From positions 1 to 38,049 of IMG/VR virus record IMGVR_UViG_3300030328_005296: DNA of 38,049 bases; one strand, written 5' to 3'. Below the pieces are notes generated by a model, which did no database searches, was not told the DNA's origin, and was given only the letters and a program-made list of their open reading frames with translations. The stretch's first letter is position 1, and each line of letters opens with the position of its first letter. The position numbers and the translations under genes were made by a program. Of this stretch, positions 14,701-38,049 are shown piece after piece. This DNA is from a virus.

Positions 14701-17700
14701 AAGTCAAAGTTACACTCCTAGTGTTAATTATCTAGAAGTTGGTTTTTCACCTTCTAATCAAATTAATGACGATATTAATGCACAAATAGGTTATTTTAAT
14801 TTAGGTGATTACATAGGTGATCCTAGAGAAGTATCTTCTTCTTCATATACTTACCCTACTTTAGATATCTTAAGAGATGCTTATTTTGAAAAATATATAA
14901 AGGGTTATGATGTAACAGACTTTATTAGATTAATAAAATTCTTTGATAATTCATTATTTAAAATGATCAAAGATTATATACCAGCTAGAACAAGTTTAGC
15001 TTCAGGTGTTGTTATTAAACAACATTTACTAGAAAGAAATAGACAAAGACCAGCTCAAGTAACATCATCATTTCAACAATATTCGGGTTCAGTTAAACCC
15101 TTTCCAAAAGATTATAACACAGGTTCATCAGATCAACCTCAATATGCAACATCAGGTTCTGCAATTTATAAATTTACGGGTGGTCCAGGAGGTTCATTTA
15201 ATAGATACAATGGTTTACAATCTTATTACTATACATTTAGTAATCTTAGTGGTTCAATTAATGTTTTAAATTTTAATGATTCAGCTACAAATAATATGGT
15301 TGGTGTTGATACTGATGACAATGATGCATTCCCAGCTAATTTAGTAACTAATTGTTGTGGAACTTTCCCAATCGAAGTAGGTTCATTTACTGGAGCCGAA
15401 GGTTATCCTCTTACTTCAAATTTTAGTATTAATGTCATGCAATCCTCAATGCCTGGATATCAATCTGGTAGTGTTGGTCAATTTCCTAATTATCAAGTCG
15501 GAGATTTTATTAGTATTGCTGCAACAGATATTGGTGGTGATAGTGGTTTCTTTACCTCTTTTATTACCCAAAGAATGCTTATAACTACAATGAGTTCAAC
15601 TCCTACTAATCAATTCTTTTTAACACAAAGTTGGAGTGAATCAGTAGACAACTCAGTATTAAATTCAACTTATTTTAATCAAAGTAGTTCACAATGGATC
15701 AGTGGTTCATTTAAAGGAGGTAAACACTACCCATATAGTAATTATTTACATTCAGACCAGTCAGAATTTTATAATGGTATATTTAGTGGATCAAATTTAA
15801 TTGTAACAACACAATCACTTAATTCAATGTGCGATGCTTATTTAAATATAAGTGATACACCTGTACAATATTATCCAATATTCTTTTCATTTACAGATAC
15901 TTTACAATCAACAATAACAAGAGATACATTTTTTGATGTTACTAATGTTCCACCCGCTGGATATGCTTGGATAGCTTCTGAACAAACAGATGATCCTATA
16001 TCAGGTATACAACAAGTTGTTGCAATTAAATTTAGTGATTTTGACGTAAATGGAAATGAAGTAGTAAATTACTTAGATGATTTTGCAGATTTAAGAATAT
16101 TATTTTCAGATTCAAATCTACCTTATTCATCCTCAGCCGCAAAATATATAATAACTGGTAGAACTATTTATGCTGATCATGCAATTTGTAATGTTTCATT
16201 AGATGAAGGAAATAATATATATGAAACAGTAGCAGGTGTAACTTATTATCCTATTACAAGTTCACAAGATGGTGGTTCAATGAATTGGAGTTTTCAAGGG
16301 GCAACAAAAGCTAAAACAGGCGCAGGTATTTCTCAGTCATCGGATTTAATTCAACTAAATACGTTTACAAATTATACAACAACTGGACAACAACAAGTAG
16401 TTTTTGTATTTAATGGAGATGAAGATGGAACTGCAGGTGCATTTGTTGATCCATTAGGTTTTAGTAATACAGGAAGTAAATCTATTAAAACAGACGTTAT
16501 TTTATCTAGTGGGTCAGAATATTTTAATAATGCTGCTTTTGTTCCTTCTTATACACCTAATATACCTTTGCTCTTCTCAGCAAGTTTAATTTATAGTTCT
16601 TCATATTGTCCTTCATGTTCAACAAATATAACAGCCTTAGGAATTTACCACTCAGGTTCAAGTTATGAAGGTGGTGGTTTAACAGATCAAAATTTTGAAA
16701 TAGGTACAGGTGGTGTTAATGCAGCATCAGGGTTTTATATAAATGATAATTCTGGAGCTGGATTTAGTTCAGCAGCATTAGCTGCAGCAGCTTCAACACC
16801 TATTGAGGCTAATCATGATACAATAATTTACTTTGATAATGGAGGTAATAGTGCGGCACAAATAACAAATGGAGACTCAATTTATTCAAATACAAGTTTA
16901 TCAACCGAAGCTTCCTTAACAACAACTAAATATTATAAAGCATCTAATGGAGATGAAACTGAGTGGATAACTTTTCAAGCTATTATAAATTTATTCACAG
17001 GTACTACTGTTACCAATGTAGCTTGGGCGTCTCCTAATGGTTCAGGTACAAAAGTTGCAGCAGCAGGATTTACACAAACCTTAGCAGGTGGAGCTACAAA
17101 ATTCCAACCATCACCAAGAACTATTGATTTAGTAAGTACAGAAGTTTTCTATACCCCTTATGATCCACAAATACCAGGAGGAGCAGGTGTAGCTTCAGGT
17201 TCATTAGGTGGTCATCCAAAATTAAGAGCAGGAGGTACAGCTTCACTTGATTTTAGATTCCCAACTTTAACTTTAGATGGTACTCCTCCAACATTACTTC
17301 CACCTGTTGTAGAAATGAGACCTTTATCTGGTAGTACTACTAATTCTAATAATACTGGTTATAGTGCTAGTTTCTCATCTTTTGGGGGTGCTTTTGGATA
17401 TACTGGTTCTTCATTAACTTCTAACTCCGATAATGGTGGTTATTTAATTAATTGGGGTCAAGCAGCTACAACTGTTGCAATTGACACAGCTCAAACAGTA
17501 ACAGATATAATCCAATTTCATGTAGTTTCATCTTATGAAGTAAGATCAGAAAATTCTAATGAAAACTTTACAGCATCTATTTGGAGACAAACACTTGATG
17601 CGGGAGATGGTTCAGTAAAAGCTTTAGGTCAATTACCTGGAACAGAAATAAATGCCTCAAGTGGTATAGCATCATTATCAAGCTTTAGTTTAGTATCATT

Positions 17701-20700
17701 TACAAGCTCAGTTTCACCTGATACTGATACACGAGATTTCTTATTCTTAAGAATTGAAGCCCCTAATAACTTTAAATATTATATAAATCAATTCCAGCAT
17801 AGTGTTACTATGGATTATTATGGATCAGATTCAATTAATTATCAAAATTATAATTTCTTCACACCTTTCTCTACAGCAGCGGGGTATCAAGGAAGTTCTA
17901 CTGTTCTTCAACAATATACTTCTTCAACAGTTTCTTCTGGAGATAGATACAATCAAGCACAAGTAGATATATATTTAAAAGTAACAGGATCCTATGGAGA
18001 AAGAATTATTACATCTTCTATATATGATTCAACTACAAGACCTAACGAAGGTTTTTCTGGATCAATTTATCCTGGTGTAGAAATGTCATTTGCTGGCTCA
18101 CCTCTATTAGGAATAAATAATACAGCAATAACCACATCTAATACACAATCAACTATTAACCACCCAGATGATATGTACTTTATTGAATATTCAATGAGTA
18201 ATTTTGTTGGGGGTGTTATTAATGGTGTTGCCCAAACTTCTCAAGAAATAGAATTTGTAACAAGTAATAATGATGCTTCATTAGTAATTACACAAAGTGC
18301 TAACATAAATTCTGGTACAGAATATAATGTTACAGGATCTGTTAGAATACTTAAATCTAATAGATCTGACATTGTAGATAATGGTGATTTTGATGCAGGT
18401 ATTTACACTACCCCAGGAGAAGTAATTGTTAATATGCCTTTTGTGATACCAACTAGTTCTGCGGCAACTAGAGTAACGGTATCTGGTTCATATGCTGGTG
18501 GTTTCCTACCAAATGATTGCTTTAGATTTGCAGTTGGTAGAGCAGCAGCTAATGTTGGATCAGGTTTTGTAGTAACAAATATAACTTGTAGTTTTAGTCC
18601 AAGTCAATCAATTTGGGCACCGTTAGCAACACCATCTGCATTAAATAATTATGATGTTCCAGCTGTAACAGACTTTATAGTACCAACTTTTTATGGAGCA
18701 GGAGTATTACCATTTAATTTAGCAGATGATTGCCAACCATTGATTAATAATTATAACTTACAAAGACAAAATTCATACTTAATGGATGTTGATTATAACA
18801 ACGAATCAGGACCTATTATACCAGTAAATCAAGCACAAATTCTTGCTAATACTGCTATTAAAGCTGCAATCCCTGATTCTAATTATACTATGAAATCTTG
18901 TATTATACCAAGATATTTAGGTTCAAAATCAACAAGTAAATATTTAAATCAATGGAGTGTAGGAGATATTGGTACATTTGGAAAAAATCCTACAATAGAA
19001 TTAAGAGATGCTTTCTTTGGATATTTTAATGATTTAGATGATCCATATCCAAATATAAATGGAGTAACAAGAGTTAATTTAAATTATTTAATTGATGAAC
19101 AAGGTAATGCATTACCACCGTCTTTAGATAGATTAAGTATTGATACGTTTGAATCAGTATTCCCATCAACAACTACAGCAAAATTAGCAGTAAAAAGTGG
19201 TAAACAAGCTTATCAACCATTAGGAAACCCAGCAGTAATTTCAAGATTAATGAAATTTGTTACACCAATTATGTATTCTCAAAATTCATCAAATAATTAC
19301 ACTAATTTAATACCATTATCAGGTTCAGGTTATATTTCAAGATATGATAATTCTGATGAACAAAGTCAAGTATTTGGACAATTTATGGCAGCTGGTGAAG
19401 CAAGTATTGATTCAACAGGAGTATTACAAGAAGTTGATTATTGGTTAAATCCAACTACTGTTTCATATGGTAGTGGTTCTACTGTTTCAACTTATTCTGG
19501 AAGTAATGGTACACCTACTGGAAGTGTATTTTACGCAACTACTCCTTGGGGGACATTAGGTAGTGATTTAGCTAACCAACAAATAATCAATTTAGAAACA
19601 TCAGTTGTTACCTCTTATGTTAGTGAAACAAGAGGAACAAGAGATGAATTAAGATTTAATTTATACTGTTATACAGGTAGTGGAGATGATACTCAAATAG
19701 GATTTAACTTAATAAGTATTGATGCAAAAGTTTATACTGATACTGGTACTGTTACTTTAATTAAAAATGTAGATGAGTATGGTTGGTTTGATTGGGAAGA
19801 TGCATCACGTGGAAATGATAATATTGTTCCAAATGCAAACCCAACTTCTGTTTCACAATGGTTATATAGTAGAGTACGAAATAATAAATCTGATACCATA
19901 GACGGAATCCAATGGTCAATAGATTGGGAAATGAGAAGAACATTATTTGATTTAGGTATAACAAGAACAGCAGAATTAAGAAGTTCTCAAAATATAACAG
20001 GAATAGAATGGATTATTAAAGCTAACACTGGTAATTATACAATTAAAGTTGGAGATAAAATTAGGTGGAGATTAGCAGGTAGATTTAAAAATGCATCAAG
20101 TGGTTTTCAACAAGGATATTTCTTCCCATCCACTTATGATGGAGCTCAAACATCTGTAAAAATACAAGGCCAAGGTGCATATGATTGGATGTTAGAAAAT
20201 GCTAATAAAGCAGAAGCACCATATTGGGTATATACTGGATCAGCTGGAGGATATTCTAGTGTTATTTCACAAAGTGTTTTAGTAATGTCTTCTTCTAACA
20301 TGAATGAAGCTTATGGGAATGGATTCCAACAAGGTATAGTAGAATATTTCCCAGGACCATCTGAATATTTTCCAGGTGGTGTAGAACCTGAAGGAACTAA
20401 TTTTGAACAAATTTACTTGCCTCTTGAATTACAAGAAGGAGATGAAATTAGATTTGGAAATAATGAAAGCTTTACTTATAAGATATTAGAAGTTTTTGCT
20501 CCACAAGAAAATATTGAAAAAAGTTCAACATACACAAGTGGTAAAGCAAGACTAAAAATTAGAGTAGATGGTCAAATACCAACTAGTGTAAATAAAGATT
20601 TCTTCTTAGTAAGAAGACCAGTTGTTAACCCTAATTCACTATATTTAGAGACTCCGTTCCCTTATGGTGCATTAGCAAGTGCTAGCATTTCTAAAAGAAT

Positions 20701-20905
20701 TGTAAGTGGATCAGATCAATTTGCACTGACAGGCTCAGCTTCAGATTTTACAGGTTCTGGAGATACTTATACTGGTTCATTTAGTAGTATTGAGTTAGCA
20801 ACAACCCCAGGTATTTTATACCCGGACTATCCAACAGAATACTTAATTAATAGTGCTTCTACGATAGTAAATAATTTAATTTCTAAAGGAATAATAGAAT
20901 CTTAA
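11789..20905 (+). CDS. Giant baseplate/tail structural protein (3038 residues)
   Basis: A single open frame of 9.1 kb following gp25-gp6, in the position occupied by large wedge/fibre-anchor proteins of T4-like phages. In order: a beta-rich N-terminal domain (1-230); a helical region (about 270-540) with YLLYAIPEYLRED and YDNVWLYTKDIANKFN; a conserved block NIPYLLKTKGTIATIRALI (about 555-575) and SYGIPDTILRVSEFG; a LamG/concanavalin-like sandwich (about 648-845) with EYRFWNQQISESNF; another conserved block DVTDFIRLIKFFDNSLFKMI (about 1038-1057); then over 1,200 residues of Ser/Thr/Gly/Asn-rich beta repeats with many SGS motifs; and a distinct C-terminal module from about 2310 (DDCQPLINNYN). 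Likely an elongated baseplate-fibre protein. It is far larger than T4 gp7, and equivalence is inferred from position only. Confidence 0.75.
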   Translation: MEEELDIIVNPIDPVSFELQNYSPADEKLIASSNLDTSFSDDTDYIEFYIYDQNGNFIYPRDTIQLRDYTVRDGDVLLNPSDNLSNLGFDIGTFNIVYNFYRKRLSSDSFNQYFISEISSDRKEIRLDSNIIENGEIIASTEDFIQYRDDAPYFVDFYLNFGENNTIIANNIRLEQDETDDPTILIKLYEPLPGDIDVKAELWVGEVISTPQAYQVTFPVDEQVEDDFTYLQGPNYSLEVRQETATSGQAFSFDALLSSNVTSSINQIKSLLNEKDINININYENYGNFVNMSSAKSRLENFSYKVGLIQSCSNQISSFLETVDQTSNTVDTKFYSSSQAVLTSQINEIIENFDGYEYFLYFNSGSLYSWPKETTTPPYVLANSGSAKAKTWLGSTDPSSAYFGGQLTSASNYDDNNPDYLLYAIPEYLREDVQNAGYELFVDMVGQYYDNVWLYTKDIANKFNADNRLDYGISKDLVADAIKDFGLKLYANNFNTDDLFTAFLGLTPSGSTFPVTNITGSISGSLGVTGYEYITAEVSASNDIVSLNDTQKQVYKRIYHNIPYLLKTKGTIATIRALITSYGIPDTILRVSEFGSKDRNESQDYDLKQDVFNYMMDTRPDANSCLTSSFNLSTNFGGGTVGVNGNIHSLQLRFKPASIPTASANVASSDIRYSQSLWVSKKGSDITGSLLVLEYTGSGFTSGSYSGSVPNAYDNYGTLKWVPSAQENPALSASIYLPFFNGDWWSAQINFTDETGTGALVTSSLFAANQINGKVGWTGSDTVLGHDTRDWNRSINAFLNTSSNLIHSGKTYQPFSGSYQEYRFWNQQISESNFHDYTVNPFSNEGNGVNSTPNQLAFRADLGTQIDTGSNTSIHPRITGSAVQITASFKDGNSDFKIENPTFKVNVEDIFQDQVPAGIKNRITNKIQIEKHLIAEEPYGFQTPTSSMATTASSDNTTLSGLRSIETISFQSQSYTPSVNYLEVGFSPSNQINDDINAQIGYFNLGDYIGDPREVSSSSYTYPTLDILRDAYFEKYIKGYDVTDFIRLIKFFDNSLFKMIKDYIPARTSLASGVVIKQHLLERNRQRPAQVTSSFQQYSGSVKPFPKDYNTGSSDQPQYATSGSAIYKFTGGPGGSFNRYNGLQSYYYTFSNLSGSINVLNFNDSATNNMVGVDTDDNDAFPANLVTNCCGTFPIEVGSFTGAEGYPLTSNFSINVMQSSMPGYQSGSVGQFPNYQVGDFISIAATDIGGDSGFFTSFITQRMLITTMSSTPTNQFFLTQSWSESVDNSVLNSTYFNQSSSQWISGSFKGGKHYPYSNYLHSDQSEFYNGIFSGSNLIVTTQSLNSMCDAYLNISDTPVQYYPIFFSFTDTLQSTITRDTFFDVTNVPPAGYAWIASEQTDDPISGIQQVVAIKFSDFDVNGNEVVNYLDDFADLRILFSDSNLPYSSSAAKYIITGRTIYADHAICNVSLDEGNNIYETVAGVTYYPITSSQDGGSMNWSFQGATKAKTGAGISQSSDLIQLNTFTNYTTTGQQQVVFVFNGDEDGTAGAFVDPLGFSNTGSKSIKTDVILSSGSEYFNNAAFVPSYTPNIPLLFSASLIYSSSYCPSCSTNITALGIYHSGSSYEGGGLTDQNFEIGTGGVNAASGFYINDNSGAGFSSAALAAAASTPIEANHDTIIYFDNGGNSAAQITNGDSIYSNTSLSTEASLTTTKYYKASNGDETEWITFQAIINLFTGTTVTNVAWASPNGSGTKVAAAGFTQTLAGGATKFQPSPRTIDLVSTEVFYTPYDPQIPGGAGVASGSLGGHPKLRAGGTASLDFRFPTLTLDGTPPTLLPPVVEMRPLSGSTTNSNNTGYSASFSSFGGAFGYTGSSLTSNSDNGGYLINWGQAATTVAIDTAQTVTDIIQFHVVSSYEVRSENSNENFTASIWRQTLDAGDGSVKALGQLPGTEINASSGIASLSSFSLVSFTSSVSPDTDTRDFLFLRIEAPNNFKYYINQFQHSVTMDYYGSDSINYQNYNFFTPFSTAAGYQGSSTVLQQYTSSTVSSGDRYNQAQVDIYLKVTGSYGERIITSSIYDSTTRPNEGFSGSIYPGVEMSFAGSPLLGINNTAITTSNTQSTINHPDDMYFIEYSMSNFVGGVINGVAQTSQEIEFVTSNNDASLVITQSANINSGTEYNVTGSVRILKSNRSDIVDNGDFDAGIYTTPGEVIVNMPFVIPTSSAATRVTVSGSYAGGFLPNDCFRFAVGRAAANVGSGFVVTNITCSFSPSQSIWAPLATPSALNNYDVPAVTDFIVPTFYGAGVLPFNLADDCQPLINNYNLQRQNSYLMDVDYNNESGPIIPVNQAQILANTAIKAAIPDSNYTMKSCIIPRYLGSKSTSKYLNQWSVGDIGTFGKNPTIELRDAFFGYFNDLDDPYPNINGVTRVNLNYLIDEQGNALPPSLDRLSIDTFESVFPSTTTAKLAVKSGKQAYQPLGNPAVISRLMKFVTPIMYSQNSSNNYTNLIPLSGSGYISRYDNSDEQSQVFGQFMAAGEASIDSTGVLQEVDYWLNPTTVSYGSGSTVSTYSGSNGTPTGSVFYATTPWGTLGSDLANQQIINLETSVVTSYVSETRGTRDELRFNLYCYTGSGDDTQIGFNLISIDAKVYTDTGTVTLIKNVDEYGWFDWEDASRGNDNIVPNANPTSVSQWLYSRVRNNKSDTIDGIQWSIDWEMRRTLFDLGITRTAELRSSQNITGIEWIIKANTGNYTIKVGDKIRWRLAGRFKNASSGFQQGYFFPSTYDGAQTSVKIQGQGAYDWMLENANKAEAPYWVYTGSAGGYSSVISQSVLVMSSSNMNEAYGNGFQQGIVEYFPGPSEYFPGGVEPEGTNFEQIYLPLELQEGDEIRFGNNESFTYKILEVFAPQENIEKSSTYTSGKARLKIRVDGQIPTSVNKDFFLVRRPVVNPNSLYLETPFPYGALASASISKRIVSGSDQFALTGSASDFTGSGDTYTGSFSSIELATTPGILYPDYPTEYLINSASTIVNNLISKGIIES

Positions 20906-23790: not shown

Positions 23791-24273
23791 ATGAGTTGGA
23801 CCTATAAAACAAATAAAATAGGCGACGTTACTCAATTTCCTGAAAACACTTTTGGCTTTGTATATTTAATTACACATAAACCAACCAATAAGTCTTACAT
23901 TGGTAAAAAAGTATTATATTATACTAGAAAACAAAAAATAGGCAAAAGAGAACTTCAAAGATTAGAAAAAGCAGTAGGTCGTCGTCCCTCATATAAATTA
24001 GTAGTTAAAGAATCAGATTGGTTAAATTATTATGGTTCTCAAAAAGAAATTAAAAATCTATTATTAGAAGGAAAAAAAGATGAGTTTGAACGTACTATTT
24101 TAAAATTATCTCCTAATAAAAAGTTATTGACATATTATGAAGTAAAATTCCAAATGATCTACCAAGTATTAGAAAAACCAGATGAGTTTTTTAATGATAA
24201 TATTTTAGGTAAATTTTTTTCAAAAGATTTTATTGATATAAAATTTGAAGATTTTTTGGATTTCGAAGAATAA
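23791..24273 (+). CDS. GIY-YIG endonuclease-like protein
   Basis: A 160-residue protein with the GIY-YIG layout: VYL at 24-26 and YIG at 36-38 within FGFVYLITHKPTNKSYIGKK, then a Lys/Arg-rich insert and an aromatic strand (SDWLNYYGSQKEIKNLL) typical of phage GIY-YIG proteins related to Seg-type homing endonucleases. The C-terminal half is helical and acidic at its end. No separate DNA-binding repeat is visible. It would cut DNA in the host cytoplasm, as a mobile homing enzyme or a repair/recombination nuclease. Co-transcription with primase and a RecB-like nuclease favours the second, but this is not settled. Confidence 0.75.
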   Translation: MSWTYKTNKIGDVTQFPENTFGFVYLITHKPTNKSYIGKKVLYYTRKQKIGKRELQRLEKAVGRRPSYKLVVKESDWLNYYGSQKEIKNLLLEGKKDEFERTILKLSPNKKLLTYYEVKFQMIYQVLEKPDEFFNDNILGKFFSKDFIDIKFEDFLDFEE

Positions 24274-26038: not shown

Positions 26039-26485
26039 ATGAAAAAGATAATATATTTGCATGGTTTAGAAAGCGACCCAGGAGGACCAAAAGTGTCTTT
26101 CTTAGCAGGAAGAGGTACAGTTTATGCACCTGCTATGGATTATAGAACATTAAATTTAAATGAATTTATTCTTACTTTAGGTACGCCTGATTTAATTATT
26201 GGCTCTAGTATGGGTGGTTATGCTGCTGATATTATTGGTTCACATTTAGGGGTTGATGTTTTATTATTTAACCCCGCTTTACATAATAGACCTATAGATC
26301 TAGATTTAGAACTTGGTAATAACAAATATAAAAGAACTATTATTTTAGGTGTTGAAGATATAGTAATTAATGCTGAATTAACTAAAGAATTAGAAAAAAA
26401 CCATGCTGTTATTGAAGAAATAGAAGGTATGGGCCACAGAACACCACTTGATGTGTTTATTAATATGTATAATAAACATGTTTAA
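26039..26485 (+). CDS. YqiA/UPF0227-like alpha/beta-hydrolase
   Basis: A compact 148-residue alpha/beta-hydrolase, like the small YqiA-type esterases. An oxyanion-type strand YLHGLES (6-12) leads. The nucleophile elbow is G55-S56-S57-M58-G59 with Ser57, and the acid and His are Asp107 (LGVEDIV) and His133 (GMGHRTP), so the triad is complete. It should cleave small esters or thioesters in the cytoplasm; the phage substrate is unknown. It lacks the targeting-like N-terminus of the genes that follow. It is the first gene after a strong host-type promoter and precedes the next ATG by 2 nt. Confidence 0.8.
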   Translation: MKKIIYLHGLESDPGGPKVSFLAGRGTVYAPAMDYRTLNLNEFILTLGTPDLIIGSSMGGYAADIIGSHLGVDVLLFNPALHNRPIDLDLELGNNKYKRTIILGVEDIVINAELTKELEKNHAVIEEIEGMGHRTPLDVFINMYNKHV

Positions 26486-26487
26486 TT

Positions 26488-27021
26488 ATGATCAAATTAA
26501 TAGATCTACTTAATGAAATAGAAATACCTAAAAATAATTGGAAACCTATTTCTAAAGATGAATTAAAAGATATTGAAAAAGAAATTTTAGATTTAATTCA
26601 AAATGCTTACGGCCCTATAGGTGGTCATCCTAATTACAAATCAGTAAGTGATTTAGCTGGCTCTGATTATGAAGTAATAGATTTAGATGATGATCCTAAT
26701 TTAGATGCAGTTACAGTAACCAAACAAAGATCAGGTGGTACTAAACATGTAGGTTTAGGTCATGATGGCACCAGTGCAGGTAAAAGAGGAGCTATAGGTT
26801 ATACTATAGACCAACTAAGTAAACCTAGTAATTATATAGAGGCATCTGGAGCTGTAGAAAATATTTTACGTAAAGCAGGTGTAGTACAAGTCACAGACGA
26901 AGAAACAATTCGTAAAGCACTTAAAGGTAAAGAAATAAAAATGTATGACGATGGTTCATATGATAGAGTTTTAGGAGGAAAAAAATATAGAAAAACAATG
27001 TTTGGAAAACCAACAGTATGA
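26488..27021 (+). CDS. Hypothetical protein with capsid-targeting-like N-terminus
   Basis: A 177-residue protein that opens with MIKLIDLLNEIEI, a short amphipathic peptide ending in L-x-E, followed by an alpha/beta body (WKPISKDELKDIEKEILDLI; GPIGGHPNYKSVSDL; VIDLDDDPNLDAVTV; GLGHDGTSAGKRGAIGYTI). The Gly/Lys/Arg-rich GHDGTSAGKRG loop and the preceding strand might suggest an acyltransferase-like fold, but I cannot confirm it. I recall similar sequences in marine T4-like phages, without known function. It overlaps the kinase gene by 4 nt. Confidence 0.6.
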   Translation: MIKLIDLLNEIEIPKNNWKPISKDELKDIEKEILDLIQNAYGPIGGHPNYKSVSDLAGSDYEVIDLDDDPNLDAVTVTKQRSGGTKHVGLGHDGTSAGKRGAIGYTIDQLSKPSNYIEASGAVENILRKAGVVQVTDEETIRKALKGKEIKMYDDGSYDRVLGGKKYRKTMFGKPTV

Positions 27022-27818
27022 TAAGTTTAGTACAATTATTAAAAGAAGCACAGGGCGAACCTAAAGCTATTATATTAGCAGGAGCACCGGGCGCTGGTAA
27101 AGGATATGTTCTTCGTGGACTAGATCTAGGAGGATTAAAAATATTAAATGTAGATAATATTTATATTGATTTACTTAAAAAAGCCAATGTATCTTTAGAT
27201 TTAAAAAATGCAACTCCAGAAGAAAGAAGTGAAGCAGCTAAAGCAATGGCTGCAGCTAATAAAGAATTTAAAGGTGATCTACAGGATACAATTGAAGGTA
27301 AGCAATCATTTATATTAGATGGCACAGCAGCATCGTATCGTTCTACTCTTAAATTAAAAGATGAATTAGAAGAAGCAGGATATGAAGTATTTATGCTTTA
27401 TGTTTATACAGATTTAGAACGTTCATTAAAACAAAACCAAGACAGATTTGAAAAATCAGGTGGTGAAGATAGAAGTTTAGCACCTGCTATAGTAATGCGT
27501 ACATGGAATGATGTTACTCAAAATTATGATACCTATAAAGATGCATTTGGTAATAATTTTGTATCAGTTTCAAATCTTTTAAAGGATGAAAAATTAGATA
27601 ATTTAGAAGACATAGTTGACAAATATTTAAAACCTTTTAAACCTCAAGGTACAAAACCAAAAGATGCTAAAGCACAAGCAAGATCTGATAAAAGAAAAGC
27701 AGAAGTTAATGCTAAAATCAAAGCATTACTAGCAGATGATGGTGTAAAAAATGTTATTGACAACTCAGTATCAGCAGAAGAAGCCCAAGCAAAACTAAAA
27801 CAATTTTTAAGTTCATGA
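27018..27818 (+). CDS. P-loop kinase (zeta-toxin/polynucleotide-kinase-like)
   Basis: A 266-residue P-loop NTPase. After a targeting-like N-terminus (MISLVQLLKEAQGE; L-K-E followed by Ala at 8-11) comes Walker A GAPGAGKG at 22-29 with Lys28, then a strand with Asp (KILNVDNIYIDLL), an acceptor-strand-like FILDGTAAS, and a lid-like segment with Arg (TDLERSLKQNQDRF; APAIVMRTWNDV). This arrangement fits zeta-toxin or polynucleotide-kinase-type phosphotransferases. The C-terminal 60 residues are Lys/Ala-rich and helical. The phosphorylated substrate (nucleotide, RNA end, or cell-wall sugar) is unknown. It overlaps both neighbours by 4 nt. Confidence 0.75.
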   Translation: MISLVQLLKEAQGEPKAIILAGAPGAGKGYVLRGLDLGGLKILNVDNIYIDLLKKANVSLDLKNATPEERSEAAKAMAAANKEFKGDLQDTIEGKQSFILDGTAASYRSTLKLKDELEEAGYEVFMLYVYTDLERSLKQNQDRFEKSGGEDRSLAPAIVMRTWNDVTQNYDTYKDAFGNNFVSVSNLLKDEKLDNLEDIVDKYLKPFKPQGTKPKDAKAQARSDKRKAEVNAKIKALLADDGVKNVIDNSVSAEEAQAKLKQFLSS

Positions 27819-30800
27819 GTTTAGTTCAAGAATTAATAAAAGGGTTATTACCTGAAGACGAAAAGAAAAAGGTAGTAGCAGTATATGGAGGTGGTTTTAA
27901 ACCACCAACCAAAGGCCACTTTGCTGTTGTTAAACAAGCCATTAAGGAAAACCCTAATGTAGATGAATTTGTTATTAATATAGGAGGTAAAGAAAGAGAT
28001 GGTGTAACACCAGAAGAAGCTATTCAAATTTGGGATATCTATAAACAATACCTTCCAATATCAGCTAATATTAATATTCAATATAGTAGTACTCCTCCTA
28101 TTAAAGCAACTTATGATTATGCTAAAAACCACCCAGATGAAGAAGTTTTATTTATTATAGGTGCTAGGGAAGGAAATGATGATGATTTTAAAGATATATC
28201 AGATAGAACTAAATCATTAGATAAATATCCTAATTTAAATTTACGTACTATAGTAACCCAAGGAGGTGTATCTGGTACAGCGGCTAGAAATGCATCTAAA
28301 ATATCATTAGATAAATTTAAACCATTTGTTCCATCTGAATTATCAGATGAAGAAGTAGAACAAGTATATAACATAGTAGCAAATAAAGTTACTGAAGGTA
28401 AACAAAAGTTAAATGAACAAATTGACTCAGGTAAATATAATTTTACTCCTTATATTGGTTCTTTAACTAAATATATGATAGATAATGGTTTAAAACTAGA
28501 TCCATACCCACAAATCCAAATGGTTCATGATGATATTGATAATGGTATGGATTTATTTGGTAAAACAGCTTATTTTTTACCTAGTGAAAATATTGTTGTT
28601 TTATTTACTTATGGTAGACATCCCAAAGATATTTTAAGATCTTATGCTCATGAATTAGTTCACGTACATCAAAATAATGAAGGTAGATTAGAAAATTATG
28701 GTACAACTAATGTTAATCAAGATGATCATTTAGAACAAATAGAAAGAGAAGCATACGAAACTGGAAATATTATGTTTAGAAGTTGGACTGATTCATTAAA
28801 TAAAAATGAATTAAAAGAATTATTAACTGAAGGTAAGTATGATAGTTTAGTAACTAAATTAGCTAGGTTTACTTTAAATGCTTGGAAAGGTGATTTAAAA
28901 GATGGACAAGAAACAGGATTTTTTGAATTAGAAATAGGCCCTGGTTTAGAATTTGACTACCCACATTTAAAATTTTTATACCAAGCTAAAGCTAAATTTG
29001 GTGACGTTTTTAAACCCACAGGCTCAGCTACACCAAACCCATCTAGAGGACTACCAAAAGTACAATTACGATATTATTTAGCTACTGAAGATTTACCTAG
29101 AATGTGGGAACAAATTGCATTTGATTTAAGAAATACAATTAGACATGAAATAGAACATCTAATGCAATCGGGGCCTAATGTTAAAAAAGGTAAAGAAATG
29201 AAGGGTGATTATTTAAAAAGAAAAGAATTAATGACTGGTGAAAAACCATGGTGGGCAATTTGGAGAGATAAATATAAAGATGCTGAGTATTATAAATTAG
29301 AAAAAGAAGTAGATGCTAACTTACAAGGTTTATATTTAAAAGCTAAAAAAGTAAGAAAACCATTAGAATTTGTTATTGATAATTATTTAAACTATGATTT
29401 AAATTTACCATCAGAAGACATAAAAGGTATAAAAGCATTATGGAGAGAAAGAGCACCTAAAATAAATGTTCCTGTATTTGAATCTAAACCAATTTTTAAT
29501 TGGGAAAAAAAAGTAACTATACCTGGTCCTGTACCACCTGCATTTTTAGAAGGTGATGTATTAACATATGAAGGTTATAAAGAACAAAGAGACTTTCCAG
29601 TTAAAGTTAAAAAAGTTGAATGGGGAGGATTTGAATATTCTCCCAACGAATACACTTATACACTACAACTTTTAAGAGATTTAAACTCCCAGAAAAAAAG
29701 AGGATTGATTTATACATTTCAATCGGAAGAGGACATAAAAGACAGATTAGCAGATAAACAACTTACTAGAGTTGAATTTGAAAGACAGCCTACAAATAGA
29801 AAAGATAGTTTTGATAAACCTATAACTTATAAAAGGATAGGTCATTTTCAAGAATCTAAAATTCCTAGTAATTGGGAGAAAAGAGTAACAATAGTTGGCC
29901 CAGAACCACCTGCATTTTTAGAAGGTGAGTTATTAACATATGAAGGTTATAAAAAGAGAAAGATTGATGGTAAATTAAAACCCCAAAGAGATTACCCAGT
30001 TGAAGTTATTGAAGTTAAATGGAATGAAGATAAAAAGGAATACGATTACACAGTAATGCTTTTAAGAGATTTAGGATATGGAGAAAAAAGAGGAATGAAA
30101 GTTCCTGGAAAATCAGAAAAAGAAATAAAAGATAAATTAGCAAAAAAACAACTTACTAGAGTTGAATTTGAAAGACAGCCTACAAATAGAAAAGATAATT
30201 GGGATAGACCCATAAAACTACCTAAAATGGGGTCTCCTTTTGGTTGGTATGGAGAATCTAAAATATTAGAAAAAGAACCATTAAACGAATTTTCACTTCC
30301 TAAATTTGATGTAGTAAAACCTATTATTGATAAATTCCTAGGAGGAGTAGAAAAAGCAGGTAAAAAATTATTAGAATTAGTTAAAAAAGAAGGCAAACAA
30401 ACTTTAGTGTTAGTTAAAGAAATAGCAGAATGGGTAATTAAAGGAGAAAAACCAAATGAAGCTGAACAAAAGAAAATTAATAAACAAATAAGTGATTTAG
30501 GTTTTATAACTATACTAGGAATAACAGGAAACTTACCATTTGGTCCTTATGCTATTTTATACTTTATAATACAAGAATCAGGTATAGCAAAAGAATTTTT
30601 AAAATTAGATGAAGAAAAAAATAAAGACCCATTTGGTTTAATGGCTTATGCTAGAGAATTAGGTAATTTAAATGAGGAAGAAAGCGAATATAAAGTTTAT
30701 CTTGACATGGATGGTGTAGTAGCTAATTTTGATAAACGTTTTGAAGATTTATCTGGAATGCAACCAAGAGATTTTGAAGAAAAATACGGTAAAAATAAAT

Positions 30801-31177
30801 TTTGGGATTTTATAGATGAAGATAATAAAGTAAGCTTTTGGGTGGGAATACCAGTTATGCCAGGGGCAGCTGAACTAGTTAATGCTGTAAAAAAATATAA
30901 TTACGAATTATTAACAGCACCATCAGTTAAAAAACAATCATACCTAGGTAAAATACTTTGGGTTAGAAACCATAGTGATATATTAGGAGGTAAACCCCGT
31001 ATTAATTTTAAAAAGGCAAAAAATAAACATCAAGTAAAAGACAATTTATCTATAAAAGATATTTTAATTGATGATAGAGAAGATACTATTGAAAGATGGG
31101 AAACAGCTGGAGGTAAAGGTATACACTATAAAAATGCGGGTCAAGTAATAAATGATCTTAAAAAATTAGGTTTATGA
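27815..31177 (+). CDS. 1120-residue multidomain protein: nucleotidyltransferase, two metalloprotease-like domains, tandem repeats, hydrophobic region, HAD phosphatase
   Basis: Order: targeting-like N-terminus (MSLVQELIKGLL); a cytidylyltransferase/NMNAT-like domain (about 18-190) with GGGFKPPTKGH (25-35, T-x-G-H site) and SGTAAR (153-158); metalloprotease-like domain 1 with HELVH (279-283) and a likely third ligand near Glu312 (EREAYETG); domain 2 with HEIEH (444-448) and Glu498 (EKEVDAN); two repeats (about 558-681 and 682-805) sharing PPAFLEG, LTYEGYK and TRVEFERQPTNRKD; a helical/hydrophobic region (about 826-950); and an HAD 5'-nucleotidase-like domain (Asp964, Asp966 in YLDMDGVV; Thr1034; Asp1086-Asp1087). 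Junctions often carry hydrophobic-x-Glu plus a small residue: E339/G340, E556/S557, E680/S681, E814/S815. The frame is intact. Processing into several enzymes is inferred. Confidence 0.8.
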   Translation: MSLVQELIKGLLPEDEKKKVVAVYGGGFKPPTKGHFAVVKQAIKENPNVDEFVINIGGKERDGVTPEEAIQIWDIYKQYLPISANINIQYSSTPPIKATYDYAKNHPDEEVLFIIGAREGNDDDFKDISDRTKSLDKYPNLNLRTIVTQGGVSGTAARNASKISLDKFKPFVPSELSDEEVEQVYNIVANKVTEGKQKLNEQIDSGKYNFTPYIGSLTKYMIDNGLKLDPYPQIQMVHDDIDNGMDLFGKTAYFLPSENIVVLFTYGRHPKDILRSYAHELVHVHQNNEGRLENYGTTNVNQDDHLEQIEREAYETGNIMFRSWTDSLNKNELKELLTEGKYDSLVTKLARFTLNAWKGDLKDGQETGFFELEIGPGLEFDYPHLKFLYQAKAKFGDVFKPTGSATPNPSRGLPKVQLRYYLATEDLPRMWEQIAFDLRNTIRHEIEHLMQSGPNVKKGKEMKGDYLKRKELMTGEKPWWAIWRDKYKDAEYYKLEKEVDANLQGLYLKAKKVRKPLEFVIDNYLNYDLNLPSEDIKGIKALWRERAPKINVPVFESKPIFNWEKKVTIPGPVPPAFLEGDVLTYEGYKEQRDFPVKVKKVEWGGFEYSPNEYTYTLQLLRDLNSQKKRGLIYTFQSEEDIKDRLADKQLTRVEFERQPTNRKDSFDKPITYKRIGHFQESKIPSNWEKRVTIVGPEPPAFLEGELLTYEGYKKRKIDGKLKPQRDYPVEVIEVKWNEDKKEYDYTVMLLRDLGYGEKRGMKVPGKSEKEIKDKLAKKQLTRVEFERQPTNRKDNWDRPIKLPKMGSPFGWYGESKILEKEPLNEFSLPKFDVVKPIIDKFLGGVEKAGKKLLELVKKEGKQTLVLVKEIAEWVIKGEKPNEAEQKKINKQISDLGFITILGITGNLPFGPYAILYFIIQESGIAKEFLKLDEEKNKDPFGLMAYARELGNLNEEESEYKVYLDMDGVVANFDKRFEDLSGMQPRDFEEKYGKNKFWDFIDEDNKVSFWVGIPVMPGAAELVNAVKKYNYELLTAPSVKKQSYLGKILWVRNHSDILGGKPRINFKKAKNKHQVKDNLSIKDILIDDREDTIERWETAGGKGIHYKNAGQVINDLKKLGL
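29756..29807 (+). repeat. 52-bp exact direct repeat, copy 1
   Basis: This stretch is identical over 52 bp to 30146-30197, 390 bp downstream, although the flanking module sequence has diverged. It encodes KQLTRVEFERQPTNRKD. It suggests recent duplication or gene conversion and could support deletion of one module by recombination. Confidence 0.85.
30146..30197 (+). repeat. 52-bp exact direct repeat, copy 2
   Basis: Identical to 29756-29807 and in the same reading frame (offset 390 bp, a multiple of three), so recombination between copies would keep the frame open and remove exactly one module. Confidence 0.85.
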
Positions 31178-31774: not shown

Positions 31775-32371
31775 ATGGAAGATAATTTTGATTTATACAA
31801 TTGGAATAATAAAAGAAGATTAGCTGAAAATAAATTAGCTAGTATATCTGATATGATGTCTCTTAACGATAAAAGAGTAAATGCAGTAGCACAAGCCATA
31901 GAGGATGAATTTGGTATTGAAATTAGTTCTAGATTAAAAGGGGTTATTAGAACTGCCTTAGCTGATTATATTGAGGAAGACCTTGGTTTAGATGTAGATC
32001 AAAATATTAATAAAGATGATGAAGGTTCTTCTTTTAATGTTACACATGGAGGTGATGACCCTAAAATAGGTGCAGAGGAAGAATCAGATGCTAATGTAGT
32101 TGGTGAAAATGAATTAATAAATCACCCTAAATTAGCTTTAAATGTTTTAAAAAAAATTGGTAGACAAACTTTTATTGATGTTTACAAAGAATATGAAGGA
32201 GCAGGACAAAGTCGTAATAGAGAACTAAAAAAAGAACTTATGGGTCTTGTAACACCTGAGGTAGAAAAATTAAAGCTTTCGGATAATGATGAAGAAAAAG
32301 TTTATAAATATATTAGAGATGGATTAGCTGGACTTGAAGGAGCTATGATGAGAAAAAATATTGGATTATAA
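31775..32371 (+). CDS. Hypothetical late protein, possible virion/core protein
   Basis: A 198-residue acidic helical protein beginning MEDNFDLYNWNNKRRLAEN. That opening is one I associate with conserved late proteins of marine T4-like phages, and its NFD-Y pattern is echoed by the gene at 33874 (MDNFDYKAYL). The middle is a low-complexity acidic linker (DDEGSSFNVTHGGDD), and the C-terminal half is helical (KLALNVLKKIGRQTFIDVYKEYEG). No enzyme motif. It is the first gene behind a late promoter. A structural or packaged role is inferred. Confidence 0.6.
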   Translation: MEDNFDLYNWNNKRRLAENKLASISDMMSLNDKRVNAVAQAIEDEFGIEISSRLKGVIRTALADYIEEDLGLDVDQNINKDDEGSSFNVTHGGDDPKIGAEEESDANVVGENELINHPKLALNVLKKIGRQTFIDVYKEYEGAGQSRNRELKKELMGLVTPEVEKLKLSDNDEEKVYKYIRDGLAGLEGAMMRKNIGL

Positions 32372-32405: not shown

Positions 32406-32939
32406 ATGAAAAATTATTTTATATTATTCTTTTCATTCCTATTATTAGTAGGATGTAACAACAAAGTAGAAAAAGTAGAAAAAGTAGAATCTGACCCTGT
32501 AACAGTTCAATTAAAGATAACAAATAATACAGAAGATATCTTAAGAGTAAATTGTACTTGGTGTGTAGACGCTAAAGATCAATGGGATACAATTCCTGTA
32601 GGTCAAACTTATACTGTCAAGTCTAATACTCATGATGCAGCAGGAACTGTATTTGCAGCATATCCAAAACCTCCAGTTAAGGATGTACCAGAAGGTGGAT
32701 GGGTTCCAGCTGATGGAAACTTTATGATGACTTATGGATATTGGAGTAATACAGCACATATTACTTGTAACTGGGATTGCAATCATAGTTCACCAACTGA
32801 AAAATACCACTACACAGGTGGAAATTGGGTTTATGATATGGCTTGGGAAAATGAAGGCGACGTAATGAATGGTCACGTAACATTTACAGTTAAACCAGCA
32901 GGACCTTTTGATGTAACAACAGTACCAGAAAAAGAGTAA
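32406..32939 (+). CDS. Phage-encoded lipoprotein
   Basis: A 177-residue protein with a type II signal peptide: hydrophobic core (YFILFFSFLLLVG) and lipobox LVGC with Cys17. After cleavage the N-terminus is a Lys/Glu repeat (NNKVEKVEKVES), then a beta-rich globular domain with four more Cys (CTWC and CNWDC), many Trp and a VTFTVKPAG end. The Cys pairs may form disulfides in the envelope. Phage lipoproteins elsewhere often block receptors (superinfection exclusion), which is one possible role; surface remodelling is another. It is followed 3 nt later by a second lipoprotein gene. Confidence 0.75.
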   Translation: MKNYFILFFSFLLLVGCNNKVEKVEKVESDPVTVQLKITNNTEDILRVNCTWCVDAKDQWDTIPVGQTYTVKSNTHDAAGTVFAAYPKPPVKDVPEGGWVPADGNFMMTYGYWSNTAHITCNWDCNHSSPTEKYHYTGGNWVYDMAWENEGDVMNGHVTFTVKPAGPFDVTTVPEKE

Positions 32940-32942
32940 TTT

Positions 32943-33848
32943 ATGAATAAATTCATACAATGGCATAAAAATATTTTCTATAAAATATTAGAAAAATGGA
33001 ACATATCCTCTTACCAGGCAGCTTGGCTGTCCTGGTTAAAGGGATTGTTAATAGGATTACTCTTATTAACATTGTGTGGATGTTCAACTTATCAATTACA
33101 AACAAGTTATACACCAACTGAAGTAATTTATTTAGACGAAGTTAAAGGCGACTCAGTCAATTTATTTACTAGTTTAGAATTTAACACTGTTAGATTAGAT
33201 TTTAGACCTTTAAGACCTAGGTTTTTTTATGGTCATAGTTATGGATATTGGCATACAAGACCATTATGGTTAGATTTTGATTACTGGCATAATGATTTTT
33301 ATTATAGTAATTTTTATTCTTATCACTATCCTTATTACTCTTATTATTACAGACCTTGGAATTATTGGGATTGGTATATGAGACCATGGAGACCTGCTAA
33401 TAATTGGTATCAGGGCCCATTTAATAACCCAAGTTATAATGTAGTTTATAATGCTAGTAGAAGAGGTAGTTTAACTGCTGATGTTAATTCAAGTATATCT
33501 AATAGAGTTCAAATTAATAGAATTGTAAATATTAATAATAGACCAGCTAATAAACCAAGTAATATAATTACTAGATTAATTAATAATTTCAAACCTAGTA
33601 ATAATAACTATAAACCTAATAATAATAACAATAATAATAATATTGTTATAAAACCTAATAATAATTATAAACCTAGTAATAATAACTATAAACCAAGTAA
33701 TAATAGTTATTCAAAACCTAGTAGTAATTATTCAAGACCCTCTAATAATTATTCAAAACCTTCTTATAATTCTAGTCCAAGCTTTAACAATAGCTCAAGA
33801 CCCAGCAATAATAGTTCAAGAGGAGGCAATTCTAGAGGAATTAATTAA
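32943..33848 (+). CDS. Lipoprotein with Tyr/Trp-rich region and Asn-rich repeats
   Basis: A 301-residue protein with a long basic/aromatic n-region (33 residues), a hydrophobic core (GLLIGLLLLTLCGC) and a lipobox LCGC with Cys47. The mature part begins with a beta segment (VIYLDEVKGDSVNLFTSLEFN), then about 65 residues dominated by Tyr, Trp, Phe and His (YYSNFYSYHYPYYSYYY), then a long Asn/Ser/Pro/Lys low-complexity tail with repeated NNNYKPS units. Such composition is typical of Bacteroidota envelope proteins and suggests capture from a host. Function unknown. It is likely co-transcribed with the lipoprotein upstream. Confidence 0.7.
   Translation: MNKFIQWHKNIFYKILEKWNISSYQAAWLSWLKGLLIGLLLLTLCGCSTYQLQTSYTPTEVIYLDEVKGDSVNLFTSLEFNTVRLDFRPLRPRFFYGHSYGYWHTRPLWLDFDYWHNDFYYSNFYSYHYPYYSYYYRPWNYWDWYMRPWRPANNWYQGPFNNPSYNVVYNASRRGSLTADVNSSISNRVQINRIVNINNRPANKPSNIITRLINNFKPSNNNYKPNNNNNNNNIVIKPNNNYKPSNNNYKPSNNSYSKPSSNYSRPSNNYSKPSYNSSPSFNNSSRPSNNSSRGGNSRGIN
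33590..33830 (+). repeat. Asn-rich trinucleotide/low-complexity repeat
   Basis: AAT/AAC-rich tandem codons encode runs of Asn (eight in a row near residue 230) and repeated NNNYKPS or NNYSKPS units in the lipoprotein tail. Unit length is a multiple of three, so slippage would change tail length without breaking the frame. Not CRISPR: no spacers, and the pattern follows the codons. Confidence 0.7.
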
Positions 33849-33873: not shown

Positions 33874-34827
33874 ATGGACAACTTTGACTACAAAGCTTAT
33901 TTAAAAAGCGGGAAAATTTACGGAAATGTAGATTCTCCTAAAGTAATTTCGGAATCAGAAGAAATTACTGAAAAGAAATATAAGCAAGGATACGACGATA
34001 GAGAAGACGAATCTCTAGGTGCTCGTAAAGGTGCTGAAAAAAAGAAAAAACAATCTTTTAAAGATCGTAGAGACGATTCTTATGGAAAATTTGGTAAAAG
34101 AGATGCCGAAGCTAAAGGAAAGAAAAAAGGACCTGGAAAAAACAAAGTCAACAAAGAAAATGTTGAAGAAGTTGAAAAAGGGTACTTTAAGAAAAAATTC
34201 GGCATTGGTAAAAAATCAAGAAAAGAAGAATTAGCTGAAACTATTTCTGAAGCTTATTCTAAAATTCAAGAAGGTGATTACCCATTTGATCAATGTTTAT
34301 CTGATAATGAAGGTAAATATGGTGTTGAAGGTGCTAAAAAAGTATGTGGTGCAATTAGAGCAGCATATGGTGAAGGTTTAGTTAAAGAAGACGCTAGAAC
34401 AGATGCTGAAGAAGAAGGATATGAAGATGGATTTAAAGATGCTAAAAAAGATATGAAAGATGCTCTTAGCAAGATGAAAGTATCTGAACTTAAATCAAAA
34501 ATCAGAGAAGATATTATCGAAATTCTATCAGAACAAGACGAAGAAGTAGATGTTGATGTTGATGAAAAAGAAGAAGTTGACGTTGATGTAGATGTAGAAG
34601 ATGATGTAACTGTTGATTCACAAGGAGATGATATTGAAATCGTTGATAAAGGTGTTAAAGCAACAGTTGACGTAGGTTTATCACCAGAAGAAGAAATTGT
34701 TCAAGATTCACTTAAAGCCGCTATGGATGCTGCAAGTGCTTTAGGAAATGATAAATTAGCAGATCAGATTGGAAATACAATTACATTCTTTACAAGAGAG
34801 TATGTAGTTGGTAATAGAACTGATTAA
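33874..34827 (+). CDS. Acidic/basic low-complexity late protein, possible prohead core protein
   Basis: A 317-residue protein of strongly segmented charge. A short NFDYKAYL opening is followed by a Lys/Arg-rich region (about 50-120: AEKKKKQSFKDRR, GKKKGPGKNK), a small conserved two-Cys motif (PFDQC at 137-141; KVCGAIRAAYG at 156-166) that I recall in marine T4-like phages, a helix, an acidic Asp-Val repeat (about 222-250) and a helical C-terminus. Several I-S-E or I-Q-E plus small-residue sites (27/28, 126/127, 133/134) would suit prohead-protease cleavage, as in T4 core proteins, though charged sequence makes chance matches likely. Role inferred from composition and late promoter. Confidence 0.6.
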   Translation: MDNFDYKAYLKSGKIYGNVDSPKVISESEEITEKKYKQGYDDREDESLGARKGAEKKKKQSFKDRRDDSYGKFGKRDAEAKGKKKGPGKNKVNKENVEEVEKGYFKKKFGIGKKSRKEELAETISEAYSKIQEGDYPFDQCLSDNEGKYGVEGAKKVCGAIRAAYGEGLVKEDARTDAEEEGYEDGFKDAKKDMKDALSKMKVSELKSKIREDIIEILSEQDEEVDVDVDEKEEVDVDVDVEDDVTVDSQGDDIEIVDKGVKATVDVGLSPEEEIVQDSLKAAMDAASALGNDKLADQIGNTITFFTREYVVGNRTD

Positions 34828-37918: not shown

Positions 37919-38049
37919 ATGTGTAATTGCGGATGTAATACTTGTGAAACAAAAGGACCTTTACTAACAGAAGGTAGGTCTAAACCCATTTTAACTGAGG
38001 GGTTTAAATATCATATAGGCAAAAATATTCCTTTATTTGAATCGGTTTA
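37919..38049 (+). CDS. Cys-rich N-terminal fragment, truncated at the window edge
   Basis: An ORF opens with ATG at 37919, 5 nt after the upstream stop, and stays open to the last base (43 codons). It begins MCNCGCNTCETKG with four Cys in the first nine residues, then LLTEGRSKPILTEG. The double L-T-E-G matches the hydrophobic-x-Glu/Gly sites proposed for prohead cleavage. It could be a small packaged or zinc-binding protein. The family cannot be named from this fragment. Confidence 0.6.
   Translation, partial: MCNCGCNTCETKGPLLTEGRSKPILTEGFKYHIGKNIPLFESV

Follow-up and report, generated by a model that had tools for sequence, protein, structure and literature searches.

The virus record IMGVR_UViG_3300030328_005296, a 38-kb fragment analyzed over its entire length of 38,049 nucleotides (the window), carries at positions 27815-31177 one intact open reading frame (ORF), with its ATG at 27815 and its stop codon ending at 31177, that encodes a protein of 1120 amino acids. 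We consider it highly probable that this gene specifies a polyprotein of host-directed effectors that is packaged into the phage head, cut in trans by a prohead protease of the T4 gp21 type, and injected in pieces. A first-pass annotation of the sequence had already proposed a packaged precursor cut into several injected enzymes; we have added comparative tests of the junctions, of split versions of the gene, and of the protease, and these favor the proposal, whereas packaging, cleavage itself, and injection rest on analogy with the internal proteins of T4 (PMC9026906), and timing and the targets of the enzymes are likewise inferred.

The single frame and the set of domains described in the first-pass annotation are both present: a nucleotidylyltransferase with a TKGH motif, two HExxH domains (HELVH and HEIEH), tandem modules, a helical segment, and a HAD domain. 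All of the motifs that it quoted were also found, namely, VTE/G at 194, LNE at 201, LTE/G at 339, VFE/S at 556, FQE/S at 680, YGE/S at 814, and LNE at 825 and 954 (the slash marks the putative cut), and two further probable cut sites are E933 and the last residue of an N-terminal leader, E14. The class I nucleotidylyltransferase gave Foldseek matches to PPAT and NadD structures, and the HAD module matched phrog_2643 (E value, 2e-23) and the structure under PDB accession number 3bwv. The HExxH modules matched no Pfam family above the cutoff and gave weak matches to zincin folds; the first of them was modeled by AlphaFold2 (AF2) with a predicted local distance difference test score (pLDDT) of 81 and was matched weakly by Foldseek to the metallopeptidases IrrE and selecase (E values, 0.04 to 0.06). 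Hydrophobic-x-Glu motifs (phi-x-E) are common in the protein, with 30 sites or about one per 37 residues, so that motif evidence from a single sequence cannot exclude chance, and for this reason we turned to relatives.

Relatives were gathered with the whole protein (19), with the N-terminal domain (the best 80 of 489), and with the HAD domain (61), and borders were analyzed in 76 nonredundant proteins, which come from Flavobacterium phage immuto and from uncultivated T4-like phages. The gene usually has a nucleotidyltransferase at its start and a HAD nucleotidase at its end; the 58 complete genes with both of these constant ends encode 447 to 1602 amino acids, and variable modules lie between the ends: basic DPKKGTG, YRYRSIYKK, and KLCKRG modules, a zinc ribbon (AIVGxKIxCDNC), DUF5661, a HYD1-type ADP-ribosyltransferase (ART), ParB-like modules, short peptides such as DPEDGKAAPYGSGY and KNCGCGQDPCITYG, and the modules of the window protein itself. 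Module counts are approximate, because the automatic grouping lumped fragments of unlike modules into a single large cluster (M0). In relatives, the ART module (PF15633) scored above the Pfam cutoff, and DUF5661 was also present; the ParB-like assignment, which comes from reading the sequences, has no Pfam match. In nearly every relative the N-terminal domain is followed by phi-x-E and then by a differing module, and E194 is invariant although the module that follows it differs. The second HExxH module stands after phi-x-E in other contexts (ISE/GKYDGL in relative L004, MAE/GRYDTV in immuto, and LNE/GRYDTL in L199), and the helical module of L006 begins at the site LQE/FSL, which corresponds in position to E825, and likewise ends in KLDE/, after which a different module follows. 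Most relatives with a fused HAD module have the sequence KDPFGLxAYA...E in front of it, with E954 nearly invariant. At the other end of the chain, M1, L3, L11, and P13 of the leader are invariant and E14 is nearly so in 11 relatives; it is a short N-terminal leader ending in hydrophobic-x-Glu, as in substrates of T4-type gp21.

Points of exchange between relatives coincide with this motif. Breakpoints were defined as the ends of high-identity local alignments lying inside both proteins, and at identities of at least 90%, phi-x-E was found at 89% of right ends (n = 27) and 69% of left ends (n = 35), compared with 12 to 13% for random positions; at identities of at least 80%, the values were 70% and 62%, respectively. 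The enrichment at borders that the first-pass annotation had proposed as a check thus amounts to 5 to 8 times chance at the higher threshold, and it is specific for Glu (P1) with a hydrophobic residue at P3: substitution of D, K, N, Q, S, T, G, A, R, L, I, V, P, or F for E gave no comparable enrichment, Glu with a nonhydrophobic P3 was not enriched, and Asp was not enriched at breakpoints of at least 80% identity. Raw BLAST ends of all identities showed a weak enrichment of Glu, because distant alignments end anywhere, and this was resolved by restriction to at least 70 to 90% identity. Among 438 supported sites, P3 is most often L, then I, and then V; P2 is unconstrained; and most P1' residues are N, G, K, A, E, or S, in agreement with the L/I-x-E cleavage motif of T4-type gp21 without tolerance of Asp (PMC9026906). 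These sites are encoded by 160 different nine-mers, 64 tripeptides, and 41 P1' codons, and it is therefore the amino acids that are kept, not the DNA.

In the N-terminal domain, Glu seldom has a hydrophobic residue two positions before it (0.18, compared to 0.34 in other ORFs of these phages), and the control frequencies were 0.44 two positions after Glu and 0.37 two positions before Asp; this depletion, computed on related sequences, lends support without settling the matter. All ten proposed sites fall in segments that AF2 modeled with pLDDT below 50, compared with 3 of 20 other phi-x-E motifs (P = 1e-5), and residues 7 to 15, around the end of the leader, are also below 50.

Individual modules retain the motif in independent contexts. 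In single-module searches, the zinc ribbon was preceded by Glu at P1 in 29 of 29 distinct contexts and by phi-x-E in 27 of them, and in one context it opens a gene directly after the 10-residue leader MIKLKHILTE/A. Of 53 contexts of the basic module, 38 have phi-x-E within the 8 residues that precede it, compared with 22% for random positions; the remaining contexts are mainly genes of 88 to 103 amino acids that open directly with the module, together with a few longer genes. Such leaderless 88- to 103-amino-acid DPKxGTG genes (L328 to L349) occur in an apparently different phage group, and Pelagibacter phage HTVC033P (L187) has a member of the same family. For the KLCK module, the phi-x-E pattern holds in nearly all contexts, one of them with the leader MDRIKELVKE/K. 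Split versions of the gene, a search for which had been suggested in the first-pass annotation, do exist: about 15 relatives encode HAD in a gene of its own, which nearly always opens with a leader that ends in phi-x-E or E, such as MANLFDLYKLIKE/N, MYKLKLTDIYKQIKE/E, and MKKVMGNLADLLLEE/S. HAD homologues outside such gene sets, in Caulobacter phage Cr30, Agrobacterium phage Atu_ph07, and Synechococcus phage BUCT-ZZ01, are leaderless. In the 10-residue leader of T4 IPIII, residues 4 and 7 direct targeting and residues 8 and 10 direct cleavage, which is blocked by Asp at position 10 (PMC9026906).

A matching protease accompanies the gene in those relatives that have head genes. Of 19 related contigs, 10, among them immuto (KNV73_gp070), encode T4-type gp21 (Peptidase_S77), and 9 encode gp23; the others are mostly shorter fragments. 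The gp21-type protease is present in 12 of 13 contigs with a junction and in 0 of 6 in which the basic module occurs without one (Fisher P = 2.6e-4), although the contigs are fragments and absence is weak evidence. The major capsid protein carries phi-x-E (LVTE, LVVE, or IVSE) aligned with the FLTE/A site of T4 gp23 in 9 of 9 cases, and the gp21 homologues mostly bear phi-x-E near their own N and C termini, so that the sites of the polyprotein are those that the phage's own protease should recognize.

We suggest that the chain would be made late and that residues 1 to 14 would target it to the prohead core, where, during head maturation, the gp21-type protease would cut after Glu at phi-x-E motifs in unstructured linkers, at E14, E194, E201, E339, E556, E680, E814, E825, E933, and E954. 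The predicted pieces are residues 15-194, 202-339, 340-556, 557-680, 681-814, 826-933, and 955-1120, with residues 1-14, 195-201, 815-825, and 934-954 as peptides; this would free, for injection with the DNA, a nucleotidylyltransferase and a nucleotidase from toward the two ends of the chain and, from between them, two zincin-like metallopeptidases, two beta-rich modules, and a helical module. Selection would keep phi-x-E at the C termini of modules and remove it from their interiors, so that modules could be gained, lost, or reordered as cassettes. More broadly, we think it likely that a lineage of double-stranded DNA phages has turned its capsid maturation protease into a polyprotein protease, with effectors strung behind one leader, separated by gp21, and injected, and with the cut site doubling as the border of exchange. 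Were this so, tailed phages would possess programmed multieffector delivery in which a polyprotein is processed by the prohead protease, and leader plus phi-x-E borders would constitute a simple sequence rule by which uncultivated phages could be searched for injected proteins. Modules that recur, some as short as 18 to 40 residues, have already been brought out by this rule and are likely to be host directed. The prediction is directly testable in the cultured phage immuto (host, Flavobacterium sp. LMO8).

Several observations weigh against this reading. Confidence in the whole-chain AF2 model is low (mean pLDDT, 62), and some phi-x-E motifs lie inside folded modules, where they must be protected. 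E814 draws on analogy with E680 and on the low pLDDT of residues 780 to 842, with little direct comparative support, and in some relatives (e.g., L139, L141, and L144) the first HExxH module is joined onward without a clear phi-x-E. The relatives share ancestry, and the counts are thus not fully independent. Neither gp21 nor gp23 was found in the 38-kb window, which is explained by its being a fragment, and the literature yielded no proteomics or N-terminal data for any member of the family, immuto included.

Other explanations account for parts of these data. The protein could belong to the polyvalent proteins and be packaged and delivered intact, or be processed by its own zincins as predicted for such proteins (PMC5512222), with the Glu-bearing linkers serving as flexible joints; the two HExxH modules, the first of which is present in 56 of 58 complete relatives, would suit such a role, and the N4 virion RNA polymerase (vRNAP) is a precedent for packaging without processing. 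We nevertheless regard this as unlikely, since phi-x-E also occurs at the major capsid protein site, in the protease, and in the leaders of short proteins that lack HExxH, and flexible joints leave unexplained why borders are marked by E with a hydrophobic P3 and not by D, K, or N. That the motif is instead a joint at the DNA level, an artifact of recombination or a relic of the ribosome-binding sites (GAAGG) of fused genes that involves no proteolysis, seems very improbable. Breakpoints do coincide with the motif, and joints of the LTEG type could encode GAAGG, but the idea was set aside after the codon test, given the many different nine-mers and P1' codons at the sites; moreover, Glu also closes the leaders of genes that stand alone and contain no joint, and phi-x-E is depleted inside modules. 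We give even less credence to a multifunctional enzyme of nucleotide metabolism and takeover that is made after infection and is no component of the virion: NadD-like and NT5C-like activities would fit NAD and nucleotide metabolism, and HAD homologues of other phages occur in such clusters, but those metabolic homologues have no leader, whereas the gene studied here bears one itself and lies, as in immuto, between tail and head genes among neighbors that bear leaders too.

The nearest concept to this packaged and processed polyprotein is that of polyvalent proteins (PMC5512222), and the nearest mechanism is that of the T4 internal proteins (PMC9026906). Like IPI to IPIII and Alt of T4, with their leaders of 10 to 19 residues containing hydrophobic residues and Glu and their L/I-x-E motif, the protein belongs to phages whose relatives have T4-type gp21 and gp23, and an ART is among the swapped modules; unlike T4, where each gene encodes one effector from which end propeptides are removed, several modules here form one chain, every border bears a site, and the modules are shuffled. 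With polyvalent proteins, which include P1 DdrB and N4 vRNAP, it shares at least two domains of unrelated activity in one polypeptide and an architecture that is mosaic among relatives, and delivery with the DNA has been predicted for them; domains in polyvalent proteins include metallopeptidase, ART, ParB-like, and nucleotidyltransferase types, to which some of the modules described here may correspond. Processing of polyvalent proteins is, however, predicted from an embedded zincin or a C-terminal assemblin-like peptidase (PMC5512222), whereas here the sites match a trans-acting prohead protease, nearly every module ends in one, and the C-terminal module is a HAD nucleotidase, with no assemblin-like peptidase at the C terminus of the chain. 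Head proteins of SPN3US and phiKZ are cleaved by the prohead proteases gp245 and gp175 after x-x-E, some propeptides being cut several times, but the 14 sites mapped in SPN3US remove N-terminal propeptides (one C-terminal), and none separates several enzymes (PMC10052503). The phiKZ-type jumbo phages, invoked as the precedent in the first-pass annotation, were set aside as the closest model, since the relatives carry T4-type gp21 and gp23. The T4 scaffold proteins gp22 and gp67 are also cut by gp21 into several fragments, but this is degradation that clears the head, and the pieces are not enzymes. In immuto (NC_055915), gp088 (907 amino acids) is a homologue from an isolate with NMNAT-like, HExxH-1, and HExxH-2 parts and LAE, VKE, and MAE borders, for which cuts after E286, E496, and E702 are predicted, and HAD is separate with a leader (gp087); gp088 differs in beginning with a Pol-beta-type nucleotidyltransferase-like part and in having fewer modules. 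The literature covered, which excluded most subscription papers, contained no report of a phage polyprotein in which a prohead protease separates several effectors at their borders, and on our best reading the design is a cross of T4 internal proteins with polyvalent proteins.

The gene order of the window follows that of immuto, with baseplate and tail genes, primase, exonuclease, and then the polyprotein gene, and the genes that come after it are those that precede terminase, portal, gp21, and gp23 in immuto. Among 44 distinct N termini of relatives of the upstream kinase, nearly all are leaders of 10 residues that end in Glu. The features are collected in the table.

Features of the polyprotein gene and of associated genes in the window (a slash marks a predicted cleavage position)
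Feature	Residues	Positions	Strand	Basis
Gene upstream, function not assigned; leader MIKLIDLLNE/I		26488..27021	+	Leader pattern read from sequence
Zeta-toxin-like kinase upstream; leader MISLVQLLKE/A		27018..27818	+	PF06414, E 6e-20
N-terminal leader MSLVQELIKGLLPE/, capsid-targeting-like, ends L-P-E	1-14	27815..27856	+	Relatives' alignment, pLDDT
Module 1, NadD/PPAT-like nucleotidylyltransferase, ends VTE/	15-194	27857..28396	+	Foldseek
Heptapeptide GKQKLNE between predicted cut sites E194 and E201	195-201	28397..28417	+	Exchange breakpoints support both sites
Module 2, zincin-like metallopeptidase (HELVH, 279-283), ends LLTE/	202-339	28418..28831	+	AF2, Foldseek
Module 3, second HExxH (HEIEH, 444-448), ends VFE/	340-556	28832..29482	+	Other contexts
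Module 4, tandem beta-rich copy 1, ends FQE/	557-680	29483..29854	+	Exchange unit in L003, L004, L132
Module 5, tandem beta-rich copy 2, ends YGE/	681-814	29855..30256	+	Sequence similarity to copy 1
Undecapeptide SKILEKEPLNE between E814 and E825	815-825	30257..30289	+	Comparison with L006
Module 6, hydrophobic helical, ends KLDE/	826-933	30290..30613	+	Comparison with L006
Linker EKNKDPFGLMAYARELGNLNE	934-954	30614..30676	+	Recurs in relatives
Module 7, HAD/NT5C 5'-nucleotidase, plus stop	955-1120	30677..31177	+	Profile, Foldseek
Related downstream gene (MEDNFDLYNWN...)		31775..32371	+	Relatives have KLCKxG module at C terminus after phi-x-E
Truncated ORF MCNCGCNTCETKGPLLTEGRSKPILTEG...LFES, probable further substrate, several motifs		37919..38049	+	Sequence at window end

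A second type of N terminus, M-(K/E)-D-N-F-D-x-x-x-W-N or MENFDLKKFLVENKLT, is found at 31775-32371 and 33874-34827 of the window and in several genes of immuto (L020); common to many genes of these phages, it is possibly another capsid-targeting signal. Second genes that resemble polyproteins, with KLCK and AAPYGSGY modules after phi-x-E, occur in relatives (L126:2726-3664, L150:8265-9848, and L152:8475-10655). Elsewhere in the window, the ORF at 32943-33848 is lipoprotein-like, with a Tyr/Trp-rich center and Asn-rich repeats (NNYKPSNN), and resembles a Bacteroidetes surface protein, though in a phage; the ORF just upstream (32406-32939) likewise starts with a lipoprotein-type signal. A small alpha/beta-hydrolase-like protein with a GSSMGG motif (26039-26485) adjoins the leader-bearing genes, and the baseplate and tail region includes a single ORF of 3038 amino acids (11789-20905). 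The ORF at 23791-24273 is GIY-YIG-like, and its counterpart in immuto (L020:10869-11306) is annotated as "NAD synthetase," probably a misannotation.
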